DNA of 64,000 bases from Bdellovibrionia bacterium (lineage in GTDB: Bacteria > Bdellovibrionota > Bdellovibrionia > Bdellovibrionales > JAGQZY01). The stretch is taken from contig JAUICP010000003.1 in the NCBI GenBank assembly GCA_030427805.1, positions 443,758 to 507,757 of the forward strand, in the 5' to 3' direction. The position numbers and the translations under genes were made by a program. Positions 5,001 through 20,056 of this stretch are shown piece after piece. The notes beneath the pieces are model-generated. The model was not told the DNA's origin. It was given only the letters and a program-made list of their open reading frames with translations, and did not search any database. The stretch's first letter is position 1; every line of letters starts with the position of its first letter.

Positions 5001-6287
5001 CTCACCAGGTCTTCTGGCAAAACTCTCGACAAACTCAGGATCTTTTTCAAGTTGGTCGAGTAGATCATCCATATAGCCAATAGTGTATTGAACACCATCG
5101 GTGTACATAATGGCTCGAGCCGCAATAATTTCACCAGTTCGAGGGTCGGTAACCGTTTGGCCGAGACCGAGAGGACCCGCTAAATTTTCAGGCGAATACA
5201 CGACCAAGACGTTCTTGCGAGGATCAGACATATTAGCGCGCTCTGATTCATCGAGAACAACCACGTCATCCTGCCGCCCTAAAGCCTCTTTAAAAGCTTG
5301 GTTCCACATACCAACAACTTCACGAATTGAGTCGAGGTAATGATCATCGAATTCTTTATTGAGGAACCAAACGATTTGGTTCGTTGAACAGCTTGCTGCC
5401 GTTCCATCAGAACGTGTTCTACCTGGCTCACAAACATTGTGACGATTGGCCATGTAAAGAACGTCATCGTCAAGAACACCTTTACCATAGGTTTTTTGCG
5501 TTCTTCTTGTTCTAAAATAACCGAAACGAGCAAATTCAGTGTCATCATAAGCAAGGGGCTCGTAATCAGAGTCTTTAACAGGCATTAAGTGAGTTCGGGT
5601 TCTCACAGTAAAACCTTGGTGGGAGTCAGAACCAAAGAACATGTCATAAATGACCTGGTAGCTCCAAGTCCACTCATAGCCCAAGTTTTCTTCGACATAG
5701 AAAGACATGTGACCATCATCTTCGATCTTAAAGTTCTCTAGGATCTTGACGTTTTGTTGGCTTAGGGATTGCCCCGTCCAAAGGTCATTTTCAACCTTAA
5801 ACGATGACTTATTGGGCTTTTCCCAATTCACACGCATGTATTTTCTTCGGTACCAAGGGCGATCCTCAGTATCCTCTATAATATCGTTTGTAACTTCACC
5901 GTAGTCGTTATCTCCACGCTGAATATCGAAATGCTTTTCGATCGGATAAGAGGCTATGACGATCCTAACATCATCCCTACGAGGGTTGGCCGGATACACC
6001 TCAACGAACTGAAGTTCGTCTTCTGTAATGACCGTCTCGACGATACCAAAATCTCGAAGCATCCCCGGAACCGCTCCGACACGGTTTTTAGAGGAAGCCT
6101 CTTCAACACCGCGAACGAGCTGAAAATGTTTTCCTTTAATGGCCTTTGACTCTATATCATTGGTAAATGTACCAAAGGAGGTCTTAGCCAAGTAAGGTTC
6201 TTTTTTCACGTGATTGTCTAGGACTTGCTTCTTGGTGCAAGCCGCAAAGACGAATAGCAAGAGTGTCATCATGACGATCTTTTTCAT
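2052..6287 (-). CDS. Very large zinc metalloprotease lipoprotein (metzincin-like, DUF4953/DUF5117-type)
   Basis: The start at 6287 follows GGGGAAAG and gives MKKIVMMTLLLFVFAACTKK, a clear lipoprotein signal with Cys after Ala-Ala. The earlier ATG at 6314 adds nine residues before the signal. About residue 647 is HEMGHALGLRHNF, the metzincin zinc site HExxHxxGxxH, and some 50 residues later SSVMDY, the Met-turn. Together with the size (1411 residues) this resembles the zinc-dependent proteases with DUF4953/5117/5118 regions known from Bacteroidetes, though those have about 800 residues; here about 700 residues follow the catalytic region and are rich in coil and helix. It is expected on the outer membrane or periplasmic face. 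It lies 44 bp downstream of a beta-barrel gene, probably one operon, and ends in its own terminator. Confidence 0.85.
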   Translation of the reverse strand: MKKIVMMTLLLFVFAACTKKQVLDNHVKKEPYLAKTSFGTFTNDIESKAIKGKHFQLVRGVEEASSKNRVGAVPGMLRDFGIVETVITEDELQFVEVYPANPRRDDVRIVIASYPIEKHFDIQRGDNDYGEVTNDIIEDTEDRPWYRRKYMRVNWEKPNKSSFKVENDLWTGQSLSQQNVKILENFKIEDDGHMSFYVEENLGYEWTWSYQVIYDMFFGSDSHQGFTVRTRTHLMPVKDSDYEPLAYDDTEFARFGYFRTRRTQKTYGKGVLDDDVLYMANRHNVCEPGRTRSDGTAASCSTNQIVWFLNKEFDDHYLDSIREVVGMWNQAFKEALGRQDDVVVLDESERANMSDPRKNVLVVYSPENLAGPLGLGQTVTDPRTGEIIAARAIMYTDGVQYTIGYMDDLLDQLEKDPEFVESFARRPGENLAKLNPVTQGFKAFARTKAAGQVAGFDPGAQFISDKWVNHLKTMQPIQTNSVKQNYFAMNPGSLRGTFAEEAYAPSAEAAVEPFKKAIKLQPQVFDFGIAKLQSPVVSGLKASAQDLLGSDLDPELNEVLQAVQPFLHPGQALRSFKNNSVRQDLSGWNEMASQYGINFEPVEFAVSAVDNYLRKLIRKNRDKPFSEVRKLVKQEIEQNLFRMLAAHEMGHALGLRHNFAGSADRPNFHDEFQERYKKFMAGDDSVKFEDLEEYAFSSVMDYGDLFYFQGIGGLGKYDKAAIKYAYYGFPCDENLKGDAERCASNSRAKKMADPIVQANYMFCTDQRVGEDITCRRFDRGWNATLITLAEIENYEARYLRSHFRRDRATFDFTMGGAAGRSMRSFVNVRQVYDEMIFNLIPGDDFDITQLSAGTCAFDFQQDSIEAGEMGNVCDPQTAGQWGLSGWDIKDWSRALVNPETNQPYKNFWEYTPNKMADLLFANQLANNFFQNIISAPEPGHYLYREVQVSPTQVIPIITPLPALSRDSQGSGFTAKSTAQVQAEGEQLLRTIASLQDMSPDQVDAFVAENKKNLVFMNRGGRAKFLSYYERYEGEMYKLQRVGYGIDKYLAISALSVRDVGVQKYRQRGFQANAYLLPQSRDLVMNLANSVISENPFISASNVLKGDGTVAENVLVPAAYPSNMDLMMIITGLANFASESERSIVSQLKICANSEAGCSSDKIDTEKVSFTSADGLNTFTVSKNVNGESIAFNMVRQAVQLSQQRDEILDVRENTPEKVGEVLTQGEQARLALHEALLKVPELADLAGTLTDNSEGAESLWMLTITLKDNFDKVSPDQMNQIIGIMSKMLQESAEKINEVAQGKLGENFQQMATEEATNQVVGSVPGQLGEFSAPEQNQEEPAISDEEREAILAVIRGFNGYVEVIQQTAGLMAAVKSGQLDAQIQEITDDLEYEESNIYFIRRFMRLFEQE

Positions 6288-6331
6288 TTTACTTTCCCCG
6301 AAAAAGTTAAACATTTCATTCCCCCGTCAAT

Positions 6332-7336
6332 CTAAATAGATGCACTTAGGTTGACGTATACAACAGCCTTTCTTGGATCTAAGAGATCAACCTCGGTCCG
6401 TTGTCCTGATGGATCGAGAGTTAAGGTCGAAGATGAAAAACCAAGACTGGCTGAAAAGCGTTTTAGAAAAGAGTAAGTCGTGGACAAATTGAGGCTCGCA
6501 ACGGTTCGAGTGACGTCCTGAAAACTTACGGTATTTTGAAAGCTCATGGTACCACCAACAGAAAGGCTCTTAAGCACCGAGTAGCGTGCTCCCGTGCTCA
6601 TTCCGTAAACATGAGGTGAATTCACACTACCAGCAATTGTCATGTCGTACTCATAAAAGCGGTAGGTGTAGAAAAACGATTGGCTTAGGTTCCACTTGCC
6701 AATGCTCTTAGAAACGTAGATTGAAGGTCCCATTGACCCTCTAAAAGAGGCCTGGGCCGACTCTTTAGAAGTTCCTAGGACTCCATCGAATCCCACACTT
6801 GAGTAGGAGAAAAAAGGAAGCTTAATCTGCCGACTGACAGATCCCGAAAGGTTCCCCAATCGAGTCGAGCGGCCGTTTGTCGGTTCATAGGTCAACTCTT
6901 GAGCTAGAGATGTTCTCAGGCTCAATGTCGTTTTGGATTGTGCATGGGTCGCCGTACCAGAAACGGAAATACCGAGTTCTTGATCGTAGAGATCTGTTTC
7001 AAGAGGCTTATTTATTTCAGAGGAGACTGTGGTACTCAGGCGTCCTTGATAGGACCAATCGCCATCGATTTTCTTCTCAATGGTCTCGCCCGTAATCGGG
7101 TCGATTTCGTAGACGACCCCTTCTTTTTTACCCTTGCCCTTGCCCTTTCCCTTTACCGAATTGACTTCATCGGCCTGAACATCAGAAAGGCCTAAGGATA
7201 GAGCAATGATCAAAGCCATGGACATTTGACCCACTAATTTCGAGATAATATTTTTTTTGAAGCGTCCAATACTGTAAGAGAAGAGTCCCCTTCTTCTCAC
7301 AAGTGTTAGAGTCACTTCCTTAGATTCTAACATCAT
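6332..7336 (-). CDS. Outer-membrane beta-barrel-like protein
   Basis: After a basic N-terminus and a hydrophobic stretch (SMALIIALSLGLSDVQA) that reads as a long signal peptide, the protein has a lysine-glycine repeat, an acidic linker, and then about 240 residues of alternating polar/hydrophobic strands rich in Ser, Thr and aromatic residues, ending VVYVNLSASI. This is the pattern of a small outer-membrane barrel of perhaps 10-12 strands. No family recognised. GGGGA lies upstream of the ATG at 7336. The gene is directly upstream of the giant metalloprotease lipoprotein on the same strand, so the barrel may anchor or export it; that link is inference from position. Confidence 0.6.
   Translation of the reverse strand: MMLESKEVTLTLVRRRGLFSYSIGRFKKNIISKLVGQMSMALIIALSLGLSDVQADEVNSVKGKGKGKGKKEGVVYEIDPITGETIEKKIDGDWSYQGRLSTTVSSEINKPLETDLYDQELGISVSGTATHAQSKTTLSLRTSLAQELTYEPTNGRSTRLGNLSGSVSRQIKLPFFSYSSVGFDGVLGTSKESAQASFRGSMGPSIYVSKSIGKWNLSQSFFYTYRFYEYDMTIAGSVNSPHVYGMSTGARYSVLKSLSVGGTMSFQNTVSFQDVTRTVASLNLSTTYSFLKRFSASLGFSSSTLTLDPSGQRTEVDLLDPRKAVVYVNLSASI
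7131..7154. repeat. In-frame 6-bp tandem repeat (Lys-Gly codons)
   Basis: Four copies of a hexamer (CCCTTG twice, then CCCTTT twice, plus-strand sense) encode alternating Gly-Lys residues in the barrel protein just after the signal peptide. Gain or loss of a unit would not shift the frame but would change the length of the basic linker. Confidence 0.8.
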
Positions 7337-7750: not shown

Positions 7751-8683
7751 ATGTTGAGAAGAATTCAACTGCGGGGACTGATCACACTTTTACTTTCGCT
7801 TTTTCTATTGAGTGCCTGTGAACCTTGGCAGGATCAGAAGTTAAAAATTAGAAAGCCCGTCGCCGATAATGCCAGCGAAGAAGTCATCTACGGCGATGAT
7901 AATAGAAAAGACCTCTATGAAGTCAGTAACAACCTCTATCTTCACTTGGCCCGCTCTACAGTTGCCCTCGTCTCCCAAAGTGACCTTATTCCCTCTAATC
8001 AGGGCGATTGGTATGATCACCCCCTACTGAGTTTTAAAGACTCCTATGGCCTTTGCCCGAGTGAACCATTTAACAGTCAAAATTCCTTGGCCTTTTGCTC
8101 GGGAACACTCATTGCTCCCAATCAAATCCTGACCGCTGGTCATTGCATCACTTCTCAATCAAGTTGCGATGATACCAAATTTGTTTTCGACTTTGCTATT
8201 CACAACCAGGGACAACACCCCAGGGGCAGCCATAAAGATGATGTTTATCAATGTACGCGCATCCTTCACCGAGCCCTTGATTCTTTTGGCCCTGACTTCG
8301 CCATCGTTGAAATCGATCGACCTGTCACTGACCGCTTCCCCGTCCACCTCGGCAAAAGAAATCAGGTTCAGGCAGGTAGCCCCCTTGTCGTCATTGGACA
8401 CCCTTCTGGAATCCCCACTAAAGTAGCCGATGGGGCTCGAATACGAACGATGACAGGCAAAGGTTTTTTCGTAGCTAACCTTGATACCTACGGTGGCAAC
8501 TCAGGAAGTGGTGTTTTTGACTCTGTTAGTGGCGACCTCGTTGGAGTTTTAGTGCGCGGAGAAACTGACTTTGTCTACGATAGAAATCAAGGTTGCACTC
8601 GATCCAACAAGTGCGCAGAGAATTCTTGCCGTGGTGAGGATGTTACGGATCTAGATCCCATCTTGGGAGCTCTCGGTCTCTAG
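7751..8683 (+). CDS. Trypsin-like (S1/V8-type) serine protease, lipoprotein
   Basis: I choose the ATG at 7751 because GGAGGGGGAC precedes it and the product begins MLRRIQLRGLITLLLSLFLL then SAC, a lipoprotein signal; the longer frame from 7667 has neither. The triad is visible: LTAGHC (His about 131), DFAIVE (Asp about 182) and GGNSGSG (Ser about 251). Asn instead of Asp before the catalytic Ser, and Ser-Gly instead of Gly-Pro after it, resemble the glutamyl-endopeptidase/V8 group more than trypsin. Several cysteines near the C-terminus may form disulfides. It opens the cluster of exported hydrolytic proteins and is convergent with the next gene. Confidence 0.85.
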   Translation: MLRRIQLRGLITLLLSLFLLSACEPWQDQKLKIRKPVADNASEEVIYGDDNRKDLYEVSNNLYLHLARSTVALVSQSDLIPSNQGDWYDHPLLSFKDSYGLCPSEPFNSQNSLAFCSGTLIAPNQILTAGHCITSQSSCDDTKFVFDFAIHNQGQHPRGSHKDDVYQCTRILHRALDSFGPDFAIVEIDRPVTDRFPVHLGKRNQVQAGSPLVVIGHPSGIPTKVADGARIRTMTGKGFFVANLDTYGGNSGSGVFDSVSGDLVGVLVRGETDFVYDRNQGCTRSNKCAENSCRGEDVTDLDPILGALGL

Positions 8684-8689
8684 GAAACA

Positions 8690-8719
8690 AAAAAGACTCT
8701 CGGTTTAGTCGCCGAGAGT
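8690..8719 (-). terminator. Intrinsic terminator between convergent protease and hydrolase genes
   Basis: Stem ACTCTCGG / CCGAGAGT with an 8-nt loop, followed on the minus strand by a run of six T. It overlaps the stop codon of the alpha/beta hydrolase gene (8705) and so ends that transcript; for the plus strand it is only a hairpin. Confidence 0.75.
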
Positions 8720-10537
8720 TCTCCACTGAATAGTACTCGGCAAATCAGTCGTTGAATAAGCCCATTCGCCATAATCATTAGCCAGTATGATATTCGAATT
8801 CGCCCATCTAGTTTTTTCTTGGGCTTCCGCTAAATTCCTAGCAGGGGCCCGAATGGGACGAGGTAAATCTCGATTCGAAATTTGCGCCCACGTTTGTCGA
8901 AAGCAGCGTTTTTTAGTCGATCGTCGCCCTTCTTCTTGGCAACCTCTTCTCGTTCGATCGAGGAGTTTTAGATAGAGTGTTGCTTTGGCCGACATTGGTT
9001 GAATTTCCCAGCGACCGCTAATAAAAATTTCACCCGGATTGAGATGGTAATTTCGACTCTTTTTAAAATACTTAAGGGAACTGCTATAGTCCCGGTAATT
9101 TCTCAATAACTCTGGTGAGTTTCGAAGGACGAAACTTCGCATTAATGAAGAGACTGTCTTCCATCCATAACCAACGTTTAAAGCACAGTGATTCCCCTTA
9201 TCCACATTGAGCATTTCAATACTTGAAACCCCCGGATTTTCACTAAGAAGGTCCACTAGTTTTTGCGTATTATCTTTAAACAATACAAACCAATCATCAC
9301 GATTACCACTGACCAAAACAGGTGTGCTTTTTACCTTCAAGGCATCTTTTTCAAAATTGTTGTAATCAAGGAGCTGATCGCCATCATTAATTTTTGGAGA
9401 CCGATAGGGCTCCATACTCCACAATTTCGTCTTGTCTTTCAAAAAGTCGGCAGCCGCTACGGCAATTCGACTGGGGAGTTCCGACGTGGCGAGAACCTTC
9501 CCATCTTGATTGGTGAAAATTGGAATCACATCGGGAAAAATTGGACCAATCTCACTGAGAAAGTGTTTAAAAACCCTTCGCATAACACTTCCATTCACTG
9601 TTGTTTGAAAAAGATGATTCAAGGAAGAACGAAGATCTACAACCGGACATATTGCAAAAATACTATCAAATGCCCGGTCTCCGCTTTGCACGAGATTGTA
9701 TTCGTTAAATAAACTGGTAAAAAGTGATGTGTGTCCACCGAGACTAAAACCGGCGAGGTGAACGCTCGAAATGACTTTTGCAAGGGGCCCCGTTTTCAGC
9801 CACTTCGAGATGCGAATCATCAAGGTCCCTTCCTCGAAACCGCCGATGCCAATTCGCTCATTGTCGGCGATAAATTCGTTACCGGTGAAGTTACCCAACA
9901 AAAGAACGTGAAAAGGTGCTGTGTCAAAGGTTTGAGTCATCAATCCGCGAGTCGTTCCATCTCCAGAATCACAGTAAGCTCCACATTTGAGAATCAGTAA
10001 TGGTTTCTTGGTCGATCCTGGCTTTAATCCCAGATAGCCACGTAGCTTGTAGAAGGGGGCTATCTTAAAGTGAATCTTTCTTACGCCTGGGTGGCTGCAA
10101 ATATCGTAGCGCGAAGAAACTAACTGCAAAAGCCCTTGTGTCGGACCTGGCCAATTACTCTCCCACTCGGACTGACAGGTTTTAAAGTGAAATCGAGCTT
10201 TTTCAGAAAACTCGGCGTGATTGTTCGTACTGAGCAAATGTCGCTCGAGCTTTTCAGGCAAACAGCTCAAACTCGTCTCGAAGCGATTGAGACCGTTAGG
10301 TGTCCATTCTCCGATGGACTGACTTTCTTCCTCTTGCCTTTGCATTATTGAAAAACGTGGAAGGGATGGATTTTCAAAATCGACTTCTATAGAAGACCTT
10401 TTACACTGCTCTTGGCTTAAGACTTTGTTACCTTGATTTTGAAAGTCGAGAAAAAGTTGGTCGACATTCCAAGCAGCACCCCGGCTTGAAAATAAAAAGA
10501 ATGTCATCACCATCAGGAAATGAAGAACTCTCAGCAT
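8705..10537 (-). CDS. Exported alpha/beta hydrolase, about 610 aa (paralog of the gene at 18158)
   Basis: The N-terminus MLRVLHFLMVMTFFLFSSRGA is a signal peptide, so the enzyme is exported. Mid-protein it has the nucleophile elbow GFSLGGH (Ser about 265), then GNRDDW and DKGNHCALN near residues 430-470, which fit the acid and histidine of an alpha/beta hydrolase triad. The front 170 and last 120 residues are not recognised; the tail carries Cys-rich and basic stretches and ends with a WAYS-T-LPS-I-WR segment shared with its paralog. The two proteins align along nearly their whole length. Substrate unknown; an ester or lipid is a guess. Possible control through the TGACA/TGTCA repeat just upstream. 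Confidence 0.7.
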   Translation of the reverse strand: MLRVLHFLMVMTFFLFSSRGAAWNVDQLFLDFQNQGNKVLSQEQCKRSSIEVDFENPSLPRFSIMQRQEEESQSIGEWTPNGLNRFETSLSCLPEKLERHLLSTNNHAEFSEKARFHFKTCQSEWESNWPGPTQGLLQLVSSRYDICSHPGVRKIHFKIAPFYKLRGYLGLKPGSTKKPLLILKCGAYCDSGDGTTRGLMTQTFDTAPFHVLLLGNFTGNEFIADNERIGIGGFEEGTLMIRISKWLKTGPLAKVISSVHLAGFSLGGHTSLFTSLFNEYNLVQSGDRAFDSIFAICPVVDLRSSLNHLFQTTVNGSVMRRVFKHFLSEIGPIFPDVIPIFTNQDGKVLATSELPSRIAVAAADFLKDKTKLWSMEPYRSPKINDGDQLLDYNNFEKDALKVKSTPVLVSGNRDDWFVLFKDNTQKLVDLLSENPGVSSIEMLNVDKGNHCALNVGYGWKTVSSLMRSFVLRNSPELLRNYRDYSSSLKYFKKSRNYHLNPGEIFISGRWEIQPMSAKATLYLKLLDRTRRGCQEEGRRSTKKRCFRQTWAQISNRDLPRPIRAPARNLAEAQEKTRWANSNIILANDYGEWAYSTTDLPSTIQWRTLGD

Positions 10538-10564
10538 AAAATCCCCCCCATCAAATACTCTAAC

Positions 10565-10585
10565 TGACAGATGAGAGCTTTGTCA
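10565..10585. promoter_or_regulatory. Candidate operator: TGACA-N11-TGTCA
   Basis: An inverted repeat lies 28 bp upstream of the ATG of the 8705-10537 hydrolase gene. Read towards that gene it is TGACAAA, nine bases, TGTCA. The paralogous hydrolase gene at 18158 has TGACAAA, thirteen bases, TGTCA upstream of its own start, so both copies may answer to one regulator. Confidence 0.35.
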
Positions 10586-10601
10586 TTGTCTTGACCTTAA
10601 T

Positions 10602-11753
10602 CTAACCGAGTTTGTGCTTAAGAAAATGTTCAACCATATAACGGCTCGGTTGACCGCCTGGACCATTTAGATTGAATTCGAATCCATGGGTTGTGTAATC
10701 AAAAATCAAGTTGTAATGGTCGACATCTTCTTCTCGGAGCTTCTTTGCTAGACTTTCAGCCTGGTTCCATGAAACCATCGGGTCAATTTTTCCGTGGAGA
10801 CTTAAAGTGGGCACCGCCTGAACGCCGTCAGACCGACTTTCTAATTTTTTTTGCACGTAAAAGGTGGGACTCGCTTCGAGATAGGCTTCTTGAGACTCCT
10901 GTGGATTCGAACCGAGAAGTTCCTTTAAAAGGTTTGGAGTGTCCAAAATATCGCCCGGGCTCCCCTCCTGCCAAAACTGGTTCATATCTGTTATTCCATA
11001 GAAGTTGATGATTCCTTTAATATTAGGAATGACCTGGCGGTAGGCTGCCAACAGTGCTAAATGCCCTCCCGCTGAACGCCCACTAATAACAATCTTTGAA
11101 CTATCAAACTTCAATTCGTCTTTTCTTTTGAGGAGGTCCCGCATTACAAATTGAACATCATTAAAATGTGTTGGCCACTTGTATTCAGGAAGCAATCGGT
11201 AACTAATTGTCGCAACGTTGTAGTTCAAACTGCACAACCATCGATTATAGGCATCCACCTGGGTCCTCGTACCGTGCTTCCAAGCACCTCCGTGAATATT
11301 TACTATGAGAGGCCGATTTCCTTCTTCAGCGAAAAGAAAATCAACAAGGAGTTCGACACCCTCTTCAGGATTCACTTGATAGGTCTTACGCTTACAGGGA
11401 AAGGCTGAAGAAAACGAAAACAATCCCAGCCAATTAATACGAAAATTAGGTTGCTCTAAAAAATAGGGCGGATTTTTTTTGAGTCGACTCTGCCACTTGA
11501 GCAACTCTCGAGTTGGCTTTGAAACTTGAACCAGAGAAAATAAATTTAATAAGAGAATTGAATAGCCTAAAACACTCCCGTCAAAGGAGAACACTGTCAG
11601 TACAGTTGAAAAAATCAGAGCCAGCAAAAAGAAAACTGAGAACTCGGTGATTAAAATATGGCACCACCAAAAAAAACGATACTGGGGCACTCGAATATAA
11701 AGTAGCGACAAAAGAAATATTACTACACTGAGTAGAAACAATAGAGTCATCAT
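10602..11753 (-). CDS. Membrane-anchored alpha/beta hydrolase (esterase/lipase, BD-FAE/HSL-like)
   Basis: The first ~85 residues form two or three hydrophobic membrane segments (start MMTLLFLLSVVIFLLSLLYI). The rest is a carboxylesterase fold: oxyanion motif NIHGGAWKHG (about 150-160), nucleophile GRSAGGH (Ser about 227), GKIDPMVSW with the acid, and THGFEF with the histidine. HGG plus GxSAGG is the signature of the hormone-sensitive-lipase and feruloyl/acetyl esterase group, which cuts short acyl esters. The catalytic domain probably sits on one face of the inner membrane. The gene lies 64 bp upstream of the large hydrolase on the same strand, in the exported-enzyme cluster, so the two may be co-transcribed. 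Confidence 0.82.
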   Translation of the reverse strand: MMTLLFLLSVVIFLLSLLYIRVPQYRFFWWCHILITEFSVFFLLALIFSTVLTVFSFDGSVLGYSILLLNLFSLVQVSKPTRELLKWQSRLKKNPPYFLEQPNFRINWLGLFSFSSAFPCKRKTYQVNPEEGVELLVDFLFAEEGNRPLIVNIHGGAWKHGTRTQVDAYNRWLCSLNYNVATISYRLLPEYKWPTHFNDVQFVMRDLLKRKDELKFDSSKIVISGRSAGGHLALLAAYRQVIPNIKGIINFYGITDMNQFWQEGSPGDILDTPNLLKELLGSNPQESQEAYLEASPTFYVQKKLESRSDGVQAVPTLSLHGKIDPMVSWNQAESLAKKLREEDVDHYNLIFDYTTHGFEFNLNGPGGQPSRYMVEHFLKHKLG

Positions 11754-11769
11754 AGGGCGAATTCCTCAC

Positions 11770-11799
11770 AAAAAAATCGGCGCTCTATTTGGCGCCGAT
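11770..11799 (-). terminator. Intrinsic terminator
   Basis: Perfect 8-bp stem ATCGGCGC / GCGCCGAT, loop of eight, with a T-run of seven on the minus strand. It ends the transcript of the histidine-rich protein gene at 11829-13256. Confidence 0.85.
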
Positions 11800-11828
11800 T
11801 TGAAACTATCTCAGTTTTGTGTTCGCGA

Positions 11829-13256
11829 CTAGTCTTGACTAAGAACAGCAGCTTCCTCATCCAGTTTTGAAAGCCAGAAATCACGAATGATTTCAAAGGC
11901 CTCATTGAGATCATTGGTCAAAGTCTTAAATCTCCACGGGGTTTCACCACCGATCCACTCCATGAAGAATAGCTGCTGAGATGTGAAATTGACCTTCTTT
12001 TCGCTCTTGAAAACCGAAGGAACCAATGGAAAGCCCTGCTCATGGTGAATATTAAAGGCCAGGCGTCGAGCTGTCTTACGAATTTGTGGATCTTCAATGG
12101 CAAGGAGGTGTTCTTTGAGTTCCACCTGCCACATATCAGATGCCTCAGAAAGCCTTGCCCACTGCTGCTCTGAAATCTCAAGATTCTTTATCCATTCCCG
12201 TTGCTTATGCCACATGAGAGCCGAATGCATATAATCGTGAATTAGAAATAGCCCCGAAGGTCGTAGAAAACCATCGGCTCTAATCGGCGTATCTGTAAGT
12301 CCAAGAAGGTAGATATCTTTCGTCATTAAGAATTGGAAAATGTCGATGCCGAAGTGACCATGGCTCGGGACAAGGATATAGGGAAGCTCATCCATATCAT
12401 AGGCCGCATTATAGGCCCCTTCAAAAGTAGATCGTGAGTTTTGGTAACTCTTAAGAAAACTTGTACGTGTGACAAATTCATAGCTTCGTCCCCGTAAGTT
12501 TTCGAGTTCAGTTTCCATATCAAATCGTCTGTAACCTTGAATTCGACGCTCTAGAACTAAAAACATGCGATCCTGAAAACCCATATTGAAAATATCAAAA
12601 AATCCCATCACTCGAACGTAATAGTGGCCTAGAGCTATGAACTCGTCGTAGGCGACGCGACCGTCTTCGGCATGATCTTCCAAAATATCATTGAGTTCGT
12701 TGAGGTACTGAATGGCCGTATCAAACTCGGAACGCAATTTAGAGGGAAAGAAAACATCTCGCAATCGGGGCACTTCACCACCTGTAAAAAGCGAACGCAT
12801 CTGACCAGTAAAAGTTGTCAGTCTTTCTTTTTTCGATTCAAACTCCTTAATTTTCCCTTGGAGTTTTTCGATCATAATCGGGATTTCAATCATTCCGACT
12901 TCACTAAAATCGAAATTGAGAGGAGCGCCAGGGTCGACTTCCTTTTGCGCGCGAAAGCGAGCATTGATTTCCGCCTTAAAGGCATCGGGATCTTTAACGA
13001 CATCTGCAACTTCAGAATTAATCCTAGCGAAGTGCTGGCCCCAAAGCTGAGTGGCTGACCGGTCATTGGCCCGTAAAAAATCTGAAGTTAAACCAAACCC
13101 CGATAGGGTCATCTCGCATCGGATATGCTTAGGACGACTGTTACTTAGAAACTTATTCTCAGCGTGAACACTTTCGAGATGGATCAACGTGCTGACGAGT
13201 ACAGTTACAACGAAAGCCACAAATTTTCTGTAATCCCAATTCTTCACTAATTTCAT
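11829..13256 (-). CDS. Exported histidine-rich protein of unknown family (copy 1)
   Basis: The ATG at 13256 has GAGG upstream and starts MKLVKNWDYRKFVAFVVTVL, a signal peptide ending at VHA-EN; the frame from 13289 adds eleven residues only. The mature protein of about 440 residues begins with a conserved Cys (HIRCEM), has a coiled helical middle, and then three conserved histidine clusters: PSHGHFGIDIFQ, HDYMHSALMWH and NIHHEQGFP. Such clusters suggest a metal site or an enzyme centre but I recognise no family. It is aligned along its full length by the next gene (13445-14884), a tandem duplicate in which all these histidines are kept. Each copy has its own terminator, so they are separate transcripts. 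Confidence 0.65.
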   Translation of the reverse strand: MKLVKNWDYRKFVAFVVTVLVSTLIHLESVHAENKFLSNSRPKHIRCEMTLSGFGLTSDFLRANDRSATQLWGQHFARINSEVADVVKDPDAFKAEINARFRAQKEVDPGAPLNFDFSEVGMIEIPIMIEKLQGKIKEFESKKERLTTFTGQMRSLFTGGEVPRLRDVFFPSKLRSEFDTAIQYLNELNDILEDHAEDGRVAYDEFIALGHYYVRVMGFFDIFNMGFQDRMFLVLERRIQGYRRFDMETELENLRGRSYEFVTRTSFLKSYQNSRSTFEGAYNAAYDMDELPYILVPSHGHFGIDIFQFLMTKDIYLLGLTDTPIRADGFLRPSGLFLIHDYMHSALMWHKQREWIKNLEISEQQWARLSEASDMWQVELKEHLLAIEDPQIRKTARRLAFNIHHEQGFPLVPSVFKSEKKVNFTSQQLFFMEWIGGETPWRFKTLTNDLNEAFEIIRDFWLSKLDEEAAVLSQD

Positions 13257-13386
13257 TCCAAACCTCGCAAATATTGAAGACTTATCCATATCTCAATACT
13301 CACTAATGCGCCATGTCATAGATCAGCCGTGAAATCATTTCTAATTTTTAAGAAATCCAGCGTAATTCGTCACCCCAGCTATGGGC

Positions 13387-13414
13387 AAAAAAAACGGCGC
13401 TCCTAGAAACGCCG
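13387..13414 (-). terminator. Intrinsic terminator
   Basis: A CGGCG / CGCCG stem with a ten-base loop is followed by eight T on the minus strand. It ends the transcript of copy 2 and separates the tandem paralogs. Confidence 0.75.
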
Positions 13415-13444
13415 ATATTTAATCGCAGATTTATTAAGTTGAGC

Positions 13445-14884
13445 CTACTCTTGCTCGAGGATCGCTCTTTCTTCATCGAGTTTAGAGAGCCAAAAGTCTT
13501 TAACAATTTCAAAGGCTTCGTCTAACTCTCGCACCATTGTTTTGTAAGTCCAAGGTGTTTCCCCGCCGATCCACTCCATGAAGTAAAGCTGGCGCGTTGT
13601 GAAATTAACCTTTGTTTCTGTTAAAAACACGGAGGGTATCATTGGAAATCCCTGCTCGTGGTGAATATTAAAAGCCAAGCGGCGTGCTGTTCTACGCATC
13701 TGCGGGTCTTGGATGGCAAAGAGGTGCTCTTTGAGCTGTACTTGCCACATATCAGAGGCTTGAGAAAGTCTTGCCCACTGTTCTTCGGTGATTCCGTTTT
13801 CTTGCTTCCACTTACTTTGCCAATGCCACATAAGGGCTGAATGCATGTAATCGTGAAGCATGAAAAGTCCTGCAGGTCTTAAGAATCCATCAGCCCTAAT
13901 TGGCTCGTCAGTCATTCCGAGAAGGTAGATATCTTTAGACATTAAAAACTGGAAGATATCGATACCAAAGTGACCGTGACTGGGTACTAAAATATACGGA
14001 AGCTCATCCATCTGCTGAGGCGCATAGTAGGCACCTTCGAAGCCCGCTCGAGACTCTTGATAACTCTCTAAAAAGCTGTCTCTGTTTACAAACTCAAAAT
14101 TGCGACCACGAAAATTATCGAGTTCCGTTCGCATATCAAAATCTTTATAACCTTGGATACGTCGCTCGAGAATTAAGGAAGCTCGGTCTTGAAAACTCAT
14201 CTCAAAAGTATCGAAGAGCCCCATTACCCGCGCATAGTAGTGTGAAAGAGCGATGAATTCATCATAGGCAACTCTGCCATCAGCGGCGTGTCTCTCTAAA
14301 ATATCATTCATTTCTCTTAAATATTGGATGGCCAACTCAAACTCTCTTCGCAATTTTGAAGGAAAGAAGATATCTCGCAAACGAGGAACTTCAGTGCCTC
14401 CAAAGATCGCGCGCATTTGACCAGTAAAAGTTGTCAGCCTCGCTTTTTTATCTTCAAAAACTTCAATCTTCTTTGCGATTTTCTCTAGCATCACCGGAAT
14501 TTCAATCATTCCGATTTCACTAAAGTCAAAAGCCAGGGGAGCGCTTGGGTGCGCTTCTTTTTGCTGGCGAAACCTTCGATTGATTTCTGCTTTAAAGGCG
14601 TCTGGGTTATTAACAACAAATTCTACTTCAGGGTTGATTCTCGTAAAATATTGTCCCCAAAGCTCAGTCGCAGAAAGACCTTTTTCTTTTAAGAACACCG
14701 ATGTTAAGTGGATATCCAACATCGTCATCTCGCAGCGATACTGCACCGGACGATTTTTGATGAGCATATCGGTAGGCTGAGCATTTGCCTGCTGAGCACT
14801 TACGCTCTCAACCTGAACAACCGAAAAAATAACTAAGGCTACTAGCCAATAACCAATAGATTTAAAGTCCCATAATCTTTTCAT
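13445..14884 (-). CDS. Exported histidine-rich protein of unknown family (copy 2)
   Basis: Start taken at the ATG at 14884, which is about eight bases after GGGAAG; the GTG at 14893 lies too close to that site. The signal peptide MKRLWDFKSIGYWLVALVIF ends near VSA-QQ. The mature protein matches copy 1 from its Cys (YRCEM) through helical repeats, DELPYILVPSHGHFGIDIF, HDYMHSALMWH and NIHHEQGFP to the acidic tail. Differences cluster in the N-terminal linker and in the helical loops, as expected for an old tandem duplication under selection. Function unknown. It is divergent from the PlsC-like gene pair. Confidence 0.65.
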   Translation of the reverse strand: MKRLWDFKSIGYWLVALVIFSVVQVESVSAQQANAQPTDMLIKNRPVQYRCEMTMLDIHLTSVFLKEKGLSATELWGQYFTRINPEVEFVVNNPDAFKAEINRRFRQQKEAHPSAPLAFDFSEIGMIEIPVMLEKIAKKIEVFEDKKARLTTFTGQMRAIFGGTEVPRLRDIFFPSKLRREFELAIQYLREMNDILERHAADGRVAYDEFIALSHYYARVMGLFDTFEMSFQDRASLILERRIQGYKDFDMRTELDNFRGRNFEFVNRDSFLESYQESRAGFEGAYYAPQQMDELPYILVPSHGHFGIDIFQFLMSKDIYLLGMTDEPIRADGFLRPAGLFMLHDYMHSALMWHWQSKWKQENGITEEQWARLSQASDMWQVQLKEHLFAIQDPQMRRTARRLAFNIHHEQGFPMIPSVFLTETKVNFTTRQLYFMEWIGGETPWTYKTMVRELDEAFEIVKDFWLSKLDEERAILEQE

Positions 14885-14982
14885 AATCTTCACTTCCCAA
14901 TAAATTTGAAATTAATTCACACCTTATAACGCATTGTATTATTTTTATCTAGTGTTATCTTTGCCCAAAAATTGGCAGTTTC

Positions 14983-15003
14983 GGGGCCTTTAGCCCCTTT
15001 TTT
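14983..15003 (+). terminator. Orphan intrinsic terminator in a divergent intergenic region
   Basis: GGGGC-CTTTA-GCCCC followed by six T on the plus strand. No plus-strand gene lies just upstream: the flanking genes run away from each other. It may end a short unannotated RNA or stop antisense transcription. Confidence 0.55.
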
Positions 15004-15157
15004 AGGCCTTGCCTTCGATTTGGTGTAATTTCTGGATGAAAAAAGATCCCATCCTAATATTTGCGCCTATTTTTCATAGTTTAGCTCCACCCGAGCAAAC
15101 CGAGGCAGCTCCATATCCATGAAATTTATTTAGGAAATTTGCAGCAATAACTTATTT

Positions 15158-15189
15158 TTGACTTTAAATAGGAGGGAACCTCCTATATT
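15158..15189 (+). promoter_or_regulatory. Candidate promoter with palindromic operator for the PlsC-like pair
   Basis: TTGACT (15158-15163) and TATATT (15184-15189) are good -35 and -10 boxes but lie 20 bp apart, longer than ideal. The spacer is largely filled by a perfect 7-bp inverted repeat, TAGGAGG-GAA-CCTCCTA (15169-15185), which overlaps the -10 box. Such a layout fits a regulator that represses, or twists the DNA to activate. The gene starts 30 bp downstream. Confidence 0.45.
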
Positions 15190-15218
15190 ATGCACCGCAT
15201 TAATAAGACGGAGCCTTC

Positions 15219-16604
15219 ATGCTACTGAAAGATTCAAAAACGATTTTGATCAGAATTGTCCTTATACTTGGAGTGCTCACCCATTCCTTGAGTTCAGTGG
15301 CACAATCAACCTCAAGTACTCATGGTTCAAATAATCGACCCGAAGAATCACAAACTCTTTTTGAACAGAAAATCCGAGTTTACCAAGAAACCTTACTCAG
15401 ACAAAAAGACATTTTTCTCAGTGAACTGGATCAGGTCAATGACTTGAGTGAATTTGACAGAAATTACGTGGCAAAATCAGCAGATGATTTTTTTTCGACA
15501 CTTATTCCTCAATTTTCAGAATTCATAGAAGCGTACTCTCGAATGCTTACCGGAGCCGAAAGTGCTTCGAGCATTGCCGACCGAGAATACAACCTCAGAA
15601 TAGCTTCCGACTACGGAATGCAAGCCCTTCATAAAATTCTGCTCGATCTCGATGCCGGCAATCGAATCAACGAAATTACTATGTTACATGTTTTAACAGA
15701 CATGACCCATGAAATGCGCACGCAAGGTGCCGTCGAGAGTCGCCCCAAACTCGATCTCAATAATATTTCGGTCTTAAACAGAACATTTCTTGAAATGTGC
15801 CGTGGTCTACTCGGATGTATTCCATTTACTTCATTTGACTTTCTAATGCGGAATTTCGACTTAAGTAATTTTCTACACCATGACGAAGACCGAATTATTT
15901 ACAACTTAAGTAATGATTTAACTCAACAAAGTGACGGACCTGAGGTCCATGTTCTATCGCTCAACCACGAGTACCCCTTGGTTGACACCATTGTCGGCCA
16001 TCGAGTGGCTAAGCTTCTTGGGGCCGACGAATCCATCTTTGTTCTCGGCGCTGGAGCTTGGCCTCAGTACAGCGTTCTCAATCGAAAATCCAATGATGTT
16101 GTTCTCACGGGAGAAGGAGTTAATGTCCTTCAAGAAATGAGTGATAAGGTCGATCAAGCTCTTGCTCGAGGTAAAAAGAAAATTTTTGTGGTCATTAACC
16201 CACAGGGGCAATTCCCGAGTTTTGCCGCGCAAATGCCTTTAGTTGCCAAGGCTGGAGCCTTTGTTTTTGCCAGAAAAATTTCCAACCGATTAAAGGGCCA
16301 AGCCAGAGTGTATTTAAAAACTGGCTATACTAATTTTATCGAACATATTTCTCGGCGCGGAGAAGAAAGGGCGGTTGTAAATATGAATCGAGCTCTTCTC
16401 GTCCCAGACTCTAAAGTATCGAGAGGTGATTCTTGGATCGAAGAACAAAGGTTAAAATTCGAAACAAATGCAAATAGAAAACTCGGCTTATCAGGAATCG
16501 ATTTAATAGATCGCGAAGAAGAGAGCGGTCACCCCAATTATAATTATCTGAATAGTTACGAAATAAGGAGAGTGCGCTGTGAACAGTCTTTTGTCCTCCT
16601 TTAA
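15219..16604 (+). CDS. Exported PlsC-like (LPLAT-related) protein with degenerate motifs (copy 1)
   Basis: GGAG lies eight bases upstream of the ATG. The signal peptide (ILIRIVLILGVLTHSLSSVA-QS) makes it an exported protein. About residues 245-350 resemble the lysophospholipid acyltransferase core: LNHEYPLVD at the place of the NHxxxxD motif but with five residues between His and Asp, and INPQGQFPSF at the place of the PEGT motif, where Glu has become Gln. LVAKAGAFVFARK follows, as in its downstream paralog. The first 200 residues are helical and not recognised. Loss of Glu suggests altered or lost catalysis. It overlaps the next gene by 26 bp, so the two are translated together. Confidence 0.5.
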   Translation: MLLKDSKTILIRIVLILGVLTHSLSSVAQSTSSTHGSNNRPEESQTLFEQKIRVYQETLLRQKDIFLSELDQVNDLSEFDRNYVAKSADDFFSTLIPQFSEFIEAYSRMLTGAESASSIADREYNLRIASDYGMQALHKILLDLDAGNRINEITMLHVLTDMTHEMRTQGAVESRPKLDLNNISVLNRTFLEMCRGLLGCIPFTSFDFLMRNFDLSNFLHHDEDRIIYNLSNDLTQQSDGPEVHVLSLNHEYPLVDTIVGHRVAKLLGADESIFVLGAGAWPQYSVLNRKSNDVVLTGEGVNVLQEMSDKVDQALARGKKKIFVVINPQGQFPSFAAQMPLVAKAGAFVFARKISNRLKGQARVYLKTGYTNFIEHISRRGEERAVVNMNRALLVPDSKVSRGDSWIEEQRLKFETNANRKLGLSGIDLIDREEESGHPNYNYLNSYEIRRVRCEQSFVLL

Positions 16605-17976
16605 ATTTATGAGAACCACAGTATTTAGTGGGCTGCTCTTAGTTAGTATTCTTCTATCCTCATTCGCCTATGGCCAGGTAGCTGATTCTGGCCGTGCAAC
16701 AATAAGTAATCAGCAAGAAATTGTTTATCTCGATAAGCTCACACAATTTGCAAAAAATATGAACTTCATGATCGATCGGGTTATCATCCCGAAATTAATG
16801 GAAAGCCACAGATCTTGCCCCCAGGGCTTGTGCGCCGAAGTTCTCAAAGAAATCGAGCGGTTTCGAACCAACTTCTCTTCTCAAATTGCAAAAATTCGCG
16901 AAGAGTATCGTGTTAACTTCTTAACTGAAGTCGCCCAAAGAAACAGAGCACGAGTTTTAACAAGACTCGAATATACGATGACTTCAGCCATGCAAGCCTT
17001 TCTCTACAAGTCGCGATCGGCCCTTAAAAGAAGATGGTTCTTCAAAAATAGAAACCTTCGTTCATTCACCCGTCGACTGACAAAAATTAACGAACACTTA
17101 GAAGCTAATGAGTATGTTCCCCTTGGTATGGCTATCGATTTAGCAAATCTCTCTCCAGTTCCTTTCGGAATTTTTTATGGAGCCTGGGAATACATTAAGG
17201 CCCGGTTTTTATACAACCGAACTATTACCGACATCGCCGAACGAATCCGCCCCGGCGGCTACCTACCCAACAACGACCAAGTCCAGTATCGGGGTTGGAA
17301 TGCTGACGGCGAATTAAAATTCCCAGAAGATTCCGTTGTCATCGTTGCGATCAATCACGACGCTGGTGCCCTCGACGGCATGTTGGCGCTGGCAATTAAT
17401 AAGCGCAATGGTGTCGAAAACAATCTCTTTTTAACAACAACGGTTGCTTACCCCGCACTCACTGCGATCTTCGACCACCAAGACCCTGATGTTTTCTTTA
17501 GAGAAAGTCGAATGTGGCCGCGAGCTATGATTCGCAAGATAGAAGAGTCAGATGAAGCCGTCGGATTTTTTACTGGTCCCGAGGGAACATTATCAACTCC
17601 AGGGGTGCAAGCTCCCTTGGTCGCTAAAAGGGGAACCTTCTGGATGGCTCGCCAACTTGCCAGGCGAATTGATAAAAAAGTCTATATCGTTCATGCGATG
17701 ACAAACGCTCTCGACTATTTCACCGACCCGGCAACAACAGATTTTGTAGTCAATATCTTCGAACCAGAGCTGGTTCCGAGTGGCCCCATTACACGCCCCA
17801 GGGACTCTTGGTCCGAAGAGCAACGCTTTCTTTTTGAAAACAGAGCCAATCGGGCCCGAGCGACTCGACTCATCGATGTTAATGCTCGCGAGAGTATTGA
17901 AGGACTTGCTATTCCTAAGGTCGTAAACCACTCTCAGCAATATGCCTGTGAATATGGTTTTTACCGAATCAACTAG
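16579..17976 (+). CDS. Exported PlsC-like (LPLAT-related) acyltransferase-like protein (copy 2)
   Basis: The start is GTG at 16579, nine bases after AGGAG and inside the end of copy 1; the ATG at 16609 has no ribosome site. The signal peptide ends near FAYG-QV. The motif INHDAGALDG (His and Asp separated by five) and FFTGPEGTLSTPG, followed by PLVAKRGTFWMARQLA, match the core of glycerolipid acyltransferases, with PEGT intact. Known family members work on the cytoplasmic face with acyl-CoA or acyl-ACP, so an exported version would need another acyl donor, such as a phospholipid. Copy 2 looks catalytically able while copy 1 is degenerate. A cytoplasmic role would require that the N-terminus stays as a membrane anchor. 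Confidence 0.52.
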   Translation: MNSLLSSFKFMRTTVFSGLLLVSILLSSFAYGQVADSGRATISNQQEIVYLDKLTQFAKNMNFMIDRVIIPKLMESHRSCPQGLCAEVLKEIERFRTNFSSQIAKIREEYRVNFLTEVAQRNRARVLTRLEYTMTSAMQAFLYKSRSALKRRWFFKNRNLRSFTRRLTKINEHLEANEYVPLGMAIDLANLSPVPFGIFYGAWEYIKARFLYNRTITDIAERIRPGGYLPNNDQVQYRGWNADGELKFPEDSVVIVAINHDAGALDGMLALAINKRNGVENNLFLTTTVAYPALTAIFDHQDPDVFFRESRMWPRAMIRKIEESDEAVGFFTGPEGTLSTPGVQAPLVAKRGTFWMARQLARRIDKKVYIVHAMTNALDYFTDPATTDFVVNIFEPELVPSGPITRPRDSWSEEQRFLFENRANRARATRLIDVNARESIEGLAIPKVVNHSQQYACEYGFYRIN

Positions 17977-18090
17977 TTAGTTTTCGGCCCCAATCCTTAA
18001 GTAAATCATTAGAATATATCCATATTTTAGCGCACAGCAAAATAACTGCGTAGTTCTGCTTTCAGCTGACAGAGCGTCATTCAGCATTAG

Positions 18091-18115
18091 TGACAAAATA
18101 CGGCTAAATTTGTCA
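18091..18115. promoter_or_regulatory. Candidate operator: TGACAAA-N11-TTTGTCA
   Basis: A perfect 7-bp inverted repeat centred about 55 bp upstream of the start at 18158. Another GCTGA-N11-TCAGC repeat lies at 18065-18085, and CTGACAGA (18066-18073) also occurs upstream of the paralog at 10564-10571. These shared elements suggest common control of the two hydrolase genes. Confidence 0.4.
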
Positions 18116-18157
18116 AATAATAGGGTGATACGAACGTCTTCGGAGGGAGGACTCATC

Positions 18158-19999
18158 ATGCTACGACATATCTATATAATTATCTTCTTCAACTTTTTCG
18201 CACTCACAAGTATTCAAGCTTTCGAAGTGAAAGAACTTTTCGCTGACTTTGAAAAGCAAGGGAACACCATTCTCACGAATGAGCAATGCAAAACCCCCTC
18301 GCTTCAAATTCGCTTTGATGACCCGTCTCAACCACAGGTTCATACGGGAAATAATCTCAATGATGCTTTAGATCCGGCATTGGGTTTTATTGAGTGGACT
18401 CCAACGGGCCTCAACGAGTACGAAACCAGCCTCACCTGTCACCCCGATCGCTTTGAGAAAAAACTATTGCGAACTAACAGTCACCGCGAGTTTTCAGAAG
18501 TGGCGCGAAACCACTATACAACCTGTCGTTCTGAACTGGAACGACACTGGCCGGGATCACCCCAGGGACTCATCCAAATGGTCTCTATTAAATACGACTT
18601 CTGTGATCACCCCTATGTTAAAAAAGTTCACTTTAATCTCCCACCATTTTATAAACTGCGTGGCTACCTCGGCCTGAAGCCGGGCAAAGAAAAGAAGCCT
18701 TTACTCATTTTAAAGTGTGGCGCCTATTGTGATGCTGGTGATCGATCGACCGTTTCACTAATGACTCATACTTATGATACGTCACCCTTCCACGTTCTTC
18801 TTCTCGGCAATTTCACTGGAACTGAATTTGTTTCGGACAACCAAAGAGTTGGAATTGGTGGCTTCGAAGAGGGCACCAAAGTGGTTCGCCTCGCCCAGTG
18901 GTTAAAAGAGGGCCCACTCGGTAAAGCCATTTCAAGTGTTCACTTGGCGGCACTGAGCCTCGGTGGTCATGCAGCGCTCTACAGTGGCTTCTATAACGAC
19001 TATAATTACGATAAATTTGGTGAAAAACCTCTAAACAGTGTCTTTGCTCTTTGCCCCGTGGTGGATTTGAAACAAAGTCTTTCCCGCCTCTTTAAAAAGG
19101 ACCTTAATGGTACTGTCATGAGAGTCATGTTTAGAAGTAACATCGCCAGTGTCGGCAGAATCTTTCCTGGAATCGATAAAATCTTTAAGAATGAAGATGG
19201 AAAAATTATCTCTAATCCGGAACTCCCAAATAAAATCGCCCAGGCGACAGTAAATTTTCTTAAAGATAAAGTCTCTCAGTGGAGTATGGCTCCTTATCTC
19301 AATCCAGTGATGACCGACGGAGAATCTTGGTTTCAAAACAACGATTTCCTCAAGGATGCTTTAGGCCTACAACAGACTCCTCTTCTAATGAGTGGTAACA
19401 GAGATGACTGGGTCGTATCTTATGACGACAACACCAGACTTCTTGAAAATCTTCTTAAGGAAAACCCCGGGGTTTCGAGTATTGAAATGCTCAATGTCGA
19501 TAAAGGAAACCACTGCGCCATGAATGTCGGTTATGGTTGGAAAACCATGTCTTCGCTCATGCGTAGCTTCGTTCTTAAAAATGCCCCTGAATTTTCTTCT
19601 CAGTTCGTCATGCAAAAAAGCCCGCTAAAGTTCTACCGCAAGGGCCGAAACTTCAAACTTAATGAGGGCGAACTTTTCATTGGGACTCGATGGGAAGTTT
19701 TACCAAACAGAGCGAAGGCTGATGTTTATTTTAAAATCCTCAATCGTAGTATCAAAGGCTGTGAAGACGAAACTCGAAAGTCCACAAAGAGTAAATGTTT
19801 TAGAAGTGTTTGGGCACAGGTCTCAAATCGACATCTACCCGACCCCTTGAAAACGCCGGCTTTGAACAAAGTTCAAGCAGAGCAGATGACAAGATGGGCA
19901 AATACTAACATCATTCCCGTCAATGATTTTGGGGAATGGGCCTACTCTGGATCGAGCCTGCCCAGTGCCATTTCATGGAGAGGCTTTAACAACAATTAA
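18158..19999 (+). CDS. Exported alpha/beta hydrolase, about 613 aa (paralog of the gene at 8705)
   Basis: The ATG at 18158 follows GGAGGGAGG and starts the signal peptide MLRHIYIIIFFNFFALTSIQA; the frame from 18110 adds 16 residues with no ribosome site. The nucleophile elbow is ALSLGGH (Ser about 267), with Ala where the paralog and most of the fold have Gly. GNRDDW and DKGNHCAMN follow as in the paralog, and the last 130 residues are also conserved. The two proteins align end to end, so this is a duplicated gene that now lies about 8 kb away in the opposite direction, bracketing the exported-protein cluster. Substrate unknown. The gene is followed by a bidirectional terminator. Confidence 0.7.
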   Translation: MLRHIYIIIFFNFFALTSIQAFEVKELFADFEKQGNTILTNEQCKTPSLQIRFDDPSQPQVHTGNNLNDALDPALGFIEWTPTGLNEYETSLTCHPDRFEKKLLRTNSHREFSEVARNHYTTCRSELERHWPGSPQGLIQMVSIKYDFCDHPYVKKVHFNLPPFYKLRGYLGLKPGKEKKPLLILKCGAYCDAGDRSTVSLMTHTYDTSPFHVLLLGNFTGTEFVSDNQRVGIGGFEEGTKVVRLAQWLKEGPLGKAISSVHLAALSLGGHAALYSGFYNDYNYDKFGEKPLNSVFALCPVVDLKQSLSRLFKKDLNGTVMRVMFRSNIASVGRIFPGIDKIFKNEDGKIISNPELPNKIAQATVNFLKDKVSQWSMAPYLNPVMTDGESWFQNNDFLKDALGLQQTPLLMSGNRDDWVVSYDDNTRLLENLLKENPGVSSIEMLNVDKGNHCAMNVGYGWKTMSSLMRSFVLKNAPEFSSQFVMQKSPLKFYRKGRNFKLNEGELFIGTRWEVLPNRAKADVYFKILNRSIKGCEDETRKSTKSKCFRSVWAQVSNRHLPDPLKTPALNKVQAEQMTRWANTNIIPVNDFGEWAYSGSSLPSAISWRGFNNN

Positions 20000-20025: not shown

Positions 20026-20056
20026 AAAAGAGCGGGTTATTCACCCGCTCTTTTTT
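20026..20056. terminator. Bidirectional intrinsic terminator
   Basis: Stem GAGCGGGT / ACCCGCTC with a 5-nt loop, flanked by A on the left and six T on the right, so it works on both strands. It lies between the hydrolase gene and the converging DUF1854 gene, and touches the stop codon of the latter. Confidence 0.9.

Follow-up and report, generated by a model that had tools for sequence, protein, structure and literature searches.

Acyltransferases of the PlsC type are normally cytoplasmic and take acyl-ACP or acyl-CoA as the acyl donor. Tafazzin is a CoA-independent transacylase within the AGPAT family (PMC8753187). In a recent study, secreted Lipocone proteins of the CapCone-2 type are predicted to occur in two-gene systems of Bdellovibrionota, together with an alpha/beta hydrolase, a patatin, an acyltransferase or an OMP, and a role in breaching the outer membranes of prey is proposed for them (PMC12419801, 2025). 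The locus described here lies in a stretch of 64,000 nucleotides from a Bdellovibrionia bacterium (the window; contig JAUICP010000003.1), in a genome of 4.5 Mb in 11 contigs. Its eight open reading frames span 7667/7751–19999 in the layout described by the original prediction, which had been made from the window's sequence, and the features are as follows.

7751..8683, + strand: V8/trypsin-like serine protease, with the ORF open from 7667 and a lipoprotein start at 7751; outside the conserved module
8705..10537, - strand: Hyd1, exported alpha/beta hydrolase with a Ser-Asp-His triad; genus-level add-on
10602..11753, - strand: Est, membrane-anchored BD-FAE/Abhydrolase_3 esterase (PF20434); core module
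11829..13289, - strand: HDxxH1, exported, with invariant HDxxH and H[DE] motifs; core module
13445..14893, - strand: HDxxH2, tandem paralogue of HDxxH1 (68% identity); core module
14894..15218, no strand: divergent intergenic region of 325 bp, separating two gene blocks that both start here
15219..16604, + strand: Pls1, exported PlsC-like protein with NHEYPLVD (HX5D) and PEG changed to PQG; core module
16579..17976, + strand: Pls2, exported PlsC-like protein with NHDAGALD (HX5D) and PEGT; core module
18158..19999, + strand: Hyd2, exported alpha/beta hydrolase, paralogue of Hyd1 (ORF opens at 18110)
20026..20054, + strand: terminator-like hairpin of 12 pairs at the cluster end

The three predicted paralogue pairs are present: Hyd1 and Hyd2 share 57% identity over 588 aa, HDxxH1 and HDxxH2 68% over 482 aa, and Pls1 and Pls2 27% over 211 aa (E = 3e-20). 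The prediction of a V8-like serine protease is borne out by a match to PF13365 (E = 2.7e-17) with TAGHC and GNSGS motifs, and that of a membrane esterase by a match to PF20434 (BD-FAE; E = 5.8e-38, 131 bits against a cut-off of 26.8), the nucleophile serine motif GRSAG and three TM-like segments at the N-terminus. Signal peptides had been expected nearly throughout, and hydrophobic N-termini are indeed found in the HDxxH, Pls and Hyd2 proteins and a lipobox-like LSAC, by eye, in the protease; the N-terminus of Hyd1 is signal-like by eye only and falls below a simple hydropathy cut-off. The label ‘histidine-rich’ for the HDxxH pair was dropped, the histidine content being merely 2.5–2.9%, and the two proteins were renamed after their invariant HDxxH motif.

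A terminator-like hairpin (14983–14997) lies in the divergent intergenic region, and both cluster edges carry strong terminator-like hairpins, at 8696–8719 and at 20026–20054. The reading frames of Pls1 and Pls2 overlap by 26 bp. Two internal terminator-like sites in the minus-strand block (13395–13414 and 11774–11801) argue against a single simple operon on that strand. The region adjoining the cluster (2052–7336) has a gene for a large, 1420-aa DUF4953 met-zincin, preceded by one for an exported 334-aa protein of a possible outer-membrane barrel type.

The recurrence of the gene set was surveyed in a sample of 291 genomes of the phylum. The same layout is found on a congener contig (L093, genome G306) at 79–97% protein identity, and dN/dS values of 0.03–0.26 for the five genes or gene parts that were comparable indicate purifying selection on these genes, with HDxxH1 being 97% identical to its congener copy (dN/dS 0.03). 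The near-relative contig JAUHWN010000198.1 is itself labelled Bdellovibrionia bacterium. In G065 (L073, 8448–12819) the HDxxH, Pls and Est genes are consecutive and are followed by a patatin gene, and in G263 (L074) Est adjoins Pls with HDxxH 2 kb off, so that with the patatin four genes fall inside 6 kb. G277 and G241 encode a fused protein of ~1000 aa, with the PlsC domain as its C-terminal half and an FxxHDxxH motif of its own in the N-terminal half; a separate HDxxH protein of the kind seen in G065 and G263 was not found in either genome. The patatin gene adjoins the fused gene in both; a partial esterase gene, cut by the contig end, adjoins it in G277, and in G241 the esterase lies ~4 kb away. 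A further genome (G017) has, in tandem, the fused form and another Pls; of the 291 genomes, 14 contain matches to a profile built from the fused HDxxH-PlsC protein. In family f17 (G096, G147 and G240) the fused-type HDxxH domain is a gene of its own, followed by an exported Acyltransf_2/PF01553 protein, and an Abhydrolase_3-type esterase comes next after the acyltransferase in G096 (by Pfam) and G240 (by sequence similarity).

The recurrence spans separate genera and families at 22–32% identity and takes three arrangements (separate, fused and analogous split). By a rough estimate, a single unique partner has a ~0.2% chance per genome of falling no more than three genes away; this figure, together with the recurrence in separate lineages, makes it far likelier that the three core families work as a unit than that they meet by chance. 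The original prediction had proposed a search for the same gene set elsewhere in Bdellovibrionota and had held that scattered orthologues would point to a chance cluster of duplicated secreted proteins. Chance clustering does account for the protease and the two hydrolases, which do not recur with the set, and the HDxxH1/HDxxH2 pair is explained by recent tandem duplication; however, linkage of the HDxxH, PlsC-like and esterase genes recurs across separate lineages with low sequence identity, so that for these families chance is largely refuted and as an account of the whole cluster it is improbable. As judged from these gene neighbourhoods, five of the eight cluster genes form a conserved module and the other three are local additions; the system they outline comprises three or four functions rather than eight genes. 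Scans of viral contigs and a plasmid search found no relatives.

The additions can be described in some detail. The alpha/beta hydrolase assignment of the original prediction is upheld by a triad (S267/D417/H452, A8 numbering) that is invariant in 12 sequences and by the match of a relative to PF12146 (Hydrolase_4, E = 1.7e-5), Hyd1 and Hyd2 themselves having no Pfam match. Homologues of Hyd2 occur in 68 of the 291 genomes, in one or two copies, and none of the module families was found in the 1.5-kb flanks of 29 Hyd loci from other genomes; on these grounds Hyd1 and Hyd2 were rejected as module members. They belong to a separate family of secreted hydrolases that is widespread and has been added beside the module in this genus. 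In genus g10, Hyd lies mostly in another recurrent neighbourhood, and the third Hyd copy of the window genome is found ~3 kb from a module-type patatin, a single case. The protease was likewise dropped as a module member, since it shows no consistent linkage to the module. A V8-like protease with 33% identity to that of the window adjoins a Hyd homologue in G272 (L072:3312–4526), the sole protease–Hyd neighbour case among the 29 loci.

The PlsC-like label of the exported pair stands on their relatives rather than on Pls1 and Pls2, which had no match in Pfam when searched themselves. Among the C-terminal domains of fused Pls relatives the best match to PF01553 has E = 3.8e-9, and the fused relative of G241 scores 35.3 bits against a cut-off of 23. 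The Pls family profile also aligns with the PlsC set of the window genome in such a way that the NH..D and PEG motifs coincide (hhalign E = 3.8e-5; the control with reversed sequences gave 0.49). These comparisons support placing the Pls1/Pls2 family, by its sequence, in PlsC/AGPAT (PF01553). The catalytic-type motif HX5D is present in all Pls members except one, where the aspartate is replaced by glutamate, and PEG is kept in every member of the A3/A5 alignments except Pls1, where the glutamate is lost (PQG); the Acyltransf_2 proteins of f17 have PAG at this position. Relatives of Pls2 were found in 8 of the 291 genomes. An AlphaFold model of Pls2, built on a thin alignment of two sequences, has a mean pLDDT of 37, and a Foldseek search with this low-confidence model returned no informative match. 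Profile searches of the PDB with the Pls, fused and HDxxH families gave coiled-coil or chance matches only, except for a weak match to PlsC (5kym, E = 1.9). The window genome also encodes a fused PlsC paralogue ~23 kb before the window (L091:9649–12567; C3 about 420–423 kb); its N-terminal half has lost HDxxH, which leaves the acyltransferase half as the only one that looks intact.

In the HDxxH family alignment the HDxxH motif (347–351), H412 followed by D or E, E257 and D335 are invariant; the protein probably binds metal. The family occurs in 16 of the 291 genomes and gave no credible match in Pfam; several further genera have more distant members, in which FxxHDxxH and a later HE are all that is shared. 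At least eight genomes encode an HDxxH protein but no Pls, so the protein has a separate role as well. Homology between the stand-alone and the fused type of HDxxH domain was considered for their common FxxHDxxH motif and is unsupported (hhalign probability <1%). An AlphaFold model of HDxxH2 (thin alignment of four sequences) has a mean pLDDT of 42, and the Foldseek search with it was empty. A 1293-aa protein of G191 (L134:5992–9873), which has no Pfam matches, contains a segment distantly similar to the family. Candidate roles are those of a metal-dependent hydrolase, a head-group enzyme or an oxygenase.

In six genomes (G148, G162, G253, G180, G098 and G039) the neighbour of a stand-alone HDxxH gene encodes an NAD(P)-dependent enzyme, of SDR, NAD-epimerase or ketopantoate-reductase type (L076, L080, L081, L082, L083 and L077); at L083 a patatin gene adjoins the SDR gene. 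The C-terminal ~140 aa of the G065 HDxxH protein (L073:8448–10412) form a domain that also occurs in a biopterin-dependent aromatic amino acid hydroxylase of G237 (L138:2713–4488; E = 2e-13, 29% identity). These neighbours and this domain, together with HDxxH and H[DE] as possible ligands and the resemblance of the fused-type HDxxH-x11-D to the HDxxH-x11-E of COQ4, would fit a redox reading, with HDxxH as an iron-dependent oxygenase, or an enzyme like COQ4, whose targets are acyl or isoprenoid chains, and with the acyltransferase and esterase to load and unload the substrate. However, membership of COQ4 (PF05019) was rejected, the profile comparison not being significant (hhalign probability 0.3–1%) and Pfam giving no match; SDRs are among the commonest enzymes, the neighbours here are of differing types, and the eight genes of the window cluster include no SDR-like partner. 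We regard the redox reading as doubtful, and the SDR adjacency as a weak lead on function.

The main rival explanation is that the locus encodes predation effectors, with HDxxH as a secreted Lipocone (CapCone-2) that attacks the lipid head groups of prey, and the acyltransferase, hydrolase and patatin breaching or digesting the prey envelope. The partners predicted for CapCone-2 match those at the HDxxH loci (PMC12419801), and this close correspondence means that the study may refer to some of the loci reported here, which lowers any claim to novelty. In contrast, the Lipocone models in Pfam gave no match for 13 HDxxH members. With the assignment of an active histidine uncertain, the HDxxH family shows xD at positions -4/-3 of H351, the Lipocone motif being DK or xD four residues before the active histidine, and no conserved glycine at the Lipocone position six residues before it in alignments A1 and A4. 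The patatin is without an evident signal peptide, and the distribution is patchy (16 of 291 genomes for HDxxH and 14 for the fused profile), both of which argue against effectors of predation. This explanation is unlikely on the present evidence, and a lipid of the cell's own envelope is favoured as the target over that of the prey; the foreign lipids, such as those of prey, that the original prediction envisaged gain no support from these data.

It is with roughly even odds (a probability of about 0.5) that we read the cluster as a conserved module for acyl remodelling outside the cytoplasm, which carries local duplications and in which the acyltransferase would be tafazzin-like and phospholipid-dependent. 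An acyltransferase that occurs together with an esterase, and often with a patatin as well, suggests remodelling of acyl chains, and the signal peptides of the acyltransferase and HDxxH proteins place it outside the cytoplasm; the lipid remodelling outside the inner membrane put forward by the original prediction is a reasonable inference. Pls1 and Pls2, as exported proteins of the PlsC fold, would work on the periplasmic side, moving acyl chains to a lipid or to another acceptor with a hydroxyl group. The donor would most likely be a phospholipid, as with mitochondrial tafazzin, and this is the simplest assumption because acyl-CoA and acyl-ACP are not expected outside the cytoplasm. Est, and elsewhere also the patatin, may strip acyl chains, supplying lyso-acceptors or clearing by-products, and the exported HDxxH protein would act on the same lipid. 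The Est proteins in the module loci of G306, G065, G263 and G241 are the best copy of each genome, and in G065, G263, G277 and G241 there is no strong full-length patatin copy besides the one next to the module. Several observations weigh against the acyl-remodelling reading: the loss of the glutamate in Pls1, the occurrence of HDxxH without Pls, the lack of an evident signal peptide on the patatin of other genomes, which may be cytoplasmic, the position of the window genome's patatin ~250 kb from the cluster, the unsupported homology between the two types of HDxxH domain, and the poor models. A periplasmic deacylation–reacylation cycle, in which an exported PlsC-fold transacylase would be coupled, and in some lineages fused, to an HDxxH metalloenzyme of an undescribed kind that would alter the lipid after the one step and before the other, is put forward tentatively and is rather improbable.

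A conserved gene set that includes an exported enzyme of the PlsC type would mean that acyl groups are exchanged either at the outer membrane or on the outer face of the inner one. The gene set provides a concrete target for the study of lipid handling outside the cytoplasm in Bdellovibrionota, and the HDxxH family, which is without a Pfam entry, now has a genomic context.

Compared with known systems, the Pls proteins resemble PlsC/AGPAT (PF01553) and Acyltransf_2 (PF19576) in the order of NH..D followed by PEG, with relatives above the Pfam threshold; they differ in carrying a signal peptide and, towards the N-terminus, a long helical region, and in having HX5D where the four best PlsC proteins of this genome have HX4D. 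The likeness to tafazzin, a PlsC-type acyltransferase without need of acyl-CoA, is an analogy only, tafazzin being eukaryotic, unlike the Pls proteins. The HDxxH domains share with COQ4 the motif spacing of the fused type, and differ from it in being exported as well as in the profile and Pfam comparisons given above. A parallel in the same phylum is with the predicted CapCone-2 systems, in which a secreted protein with a conserved histidine likewise stands beside an acyltransferase, a patatin or an alpha/beta hydrolase (PMC12419801); the HDxxH loci differ from these two-gene systems in having up to four components and a fused form, and their HDxxH proteins are candidate Lipocones only.
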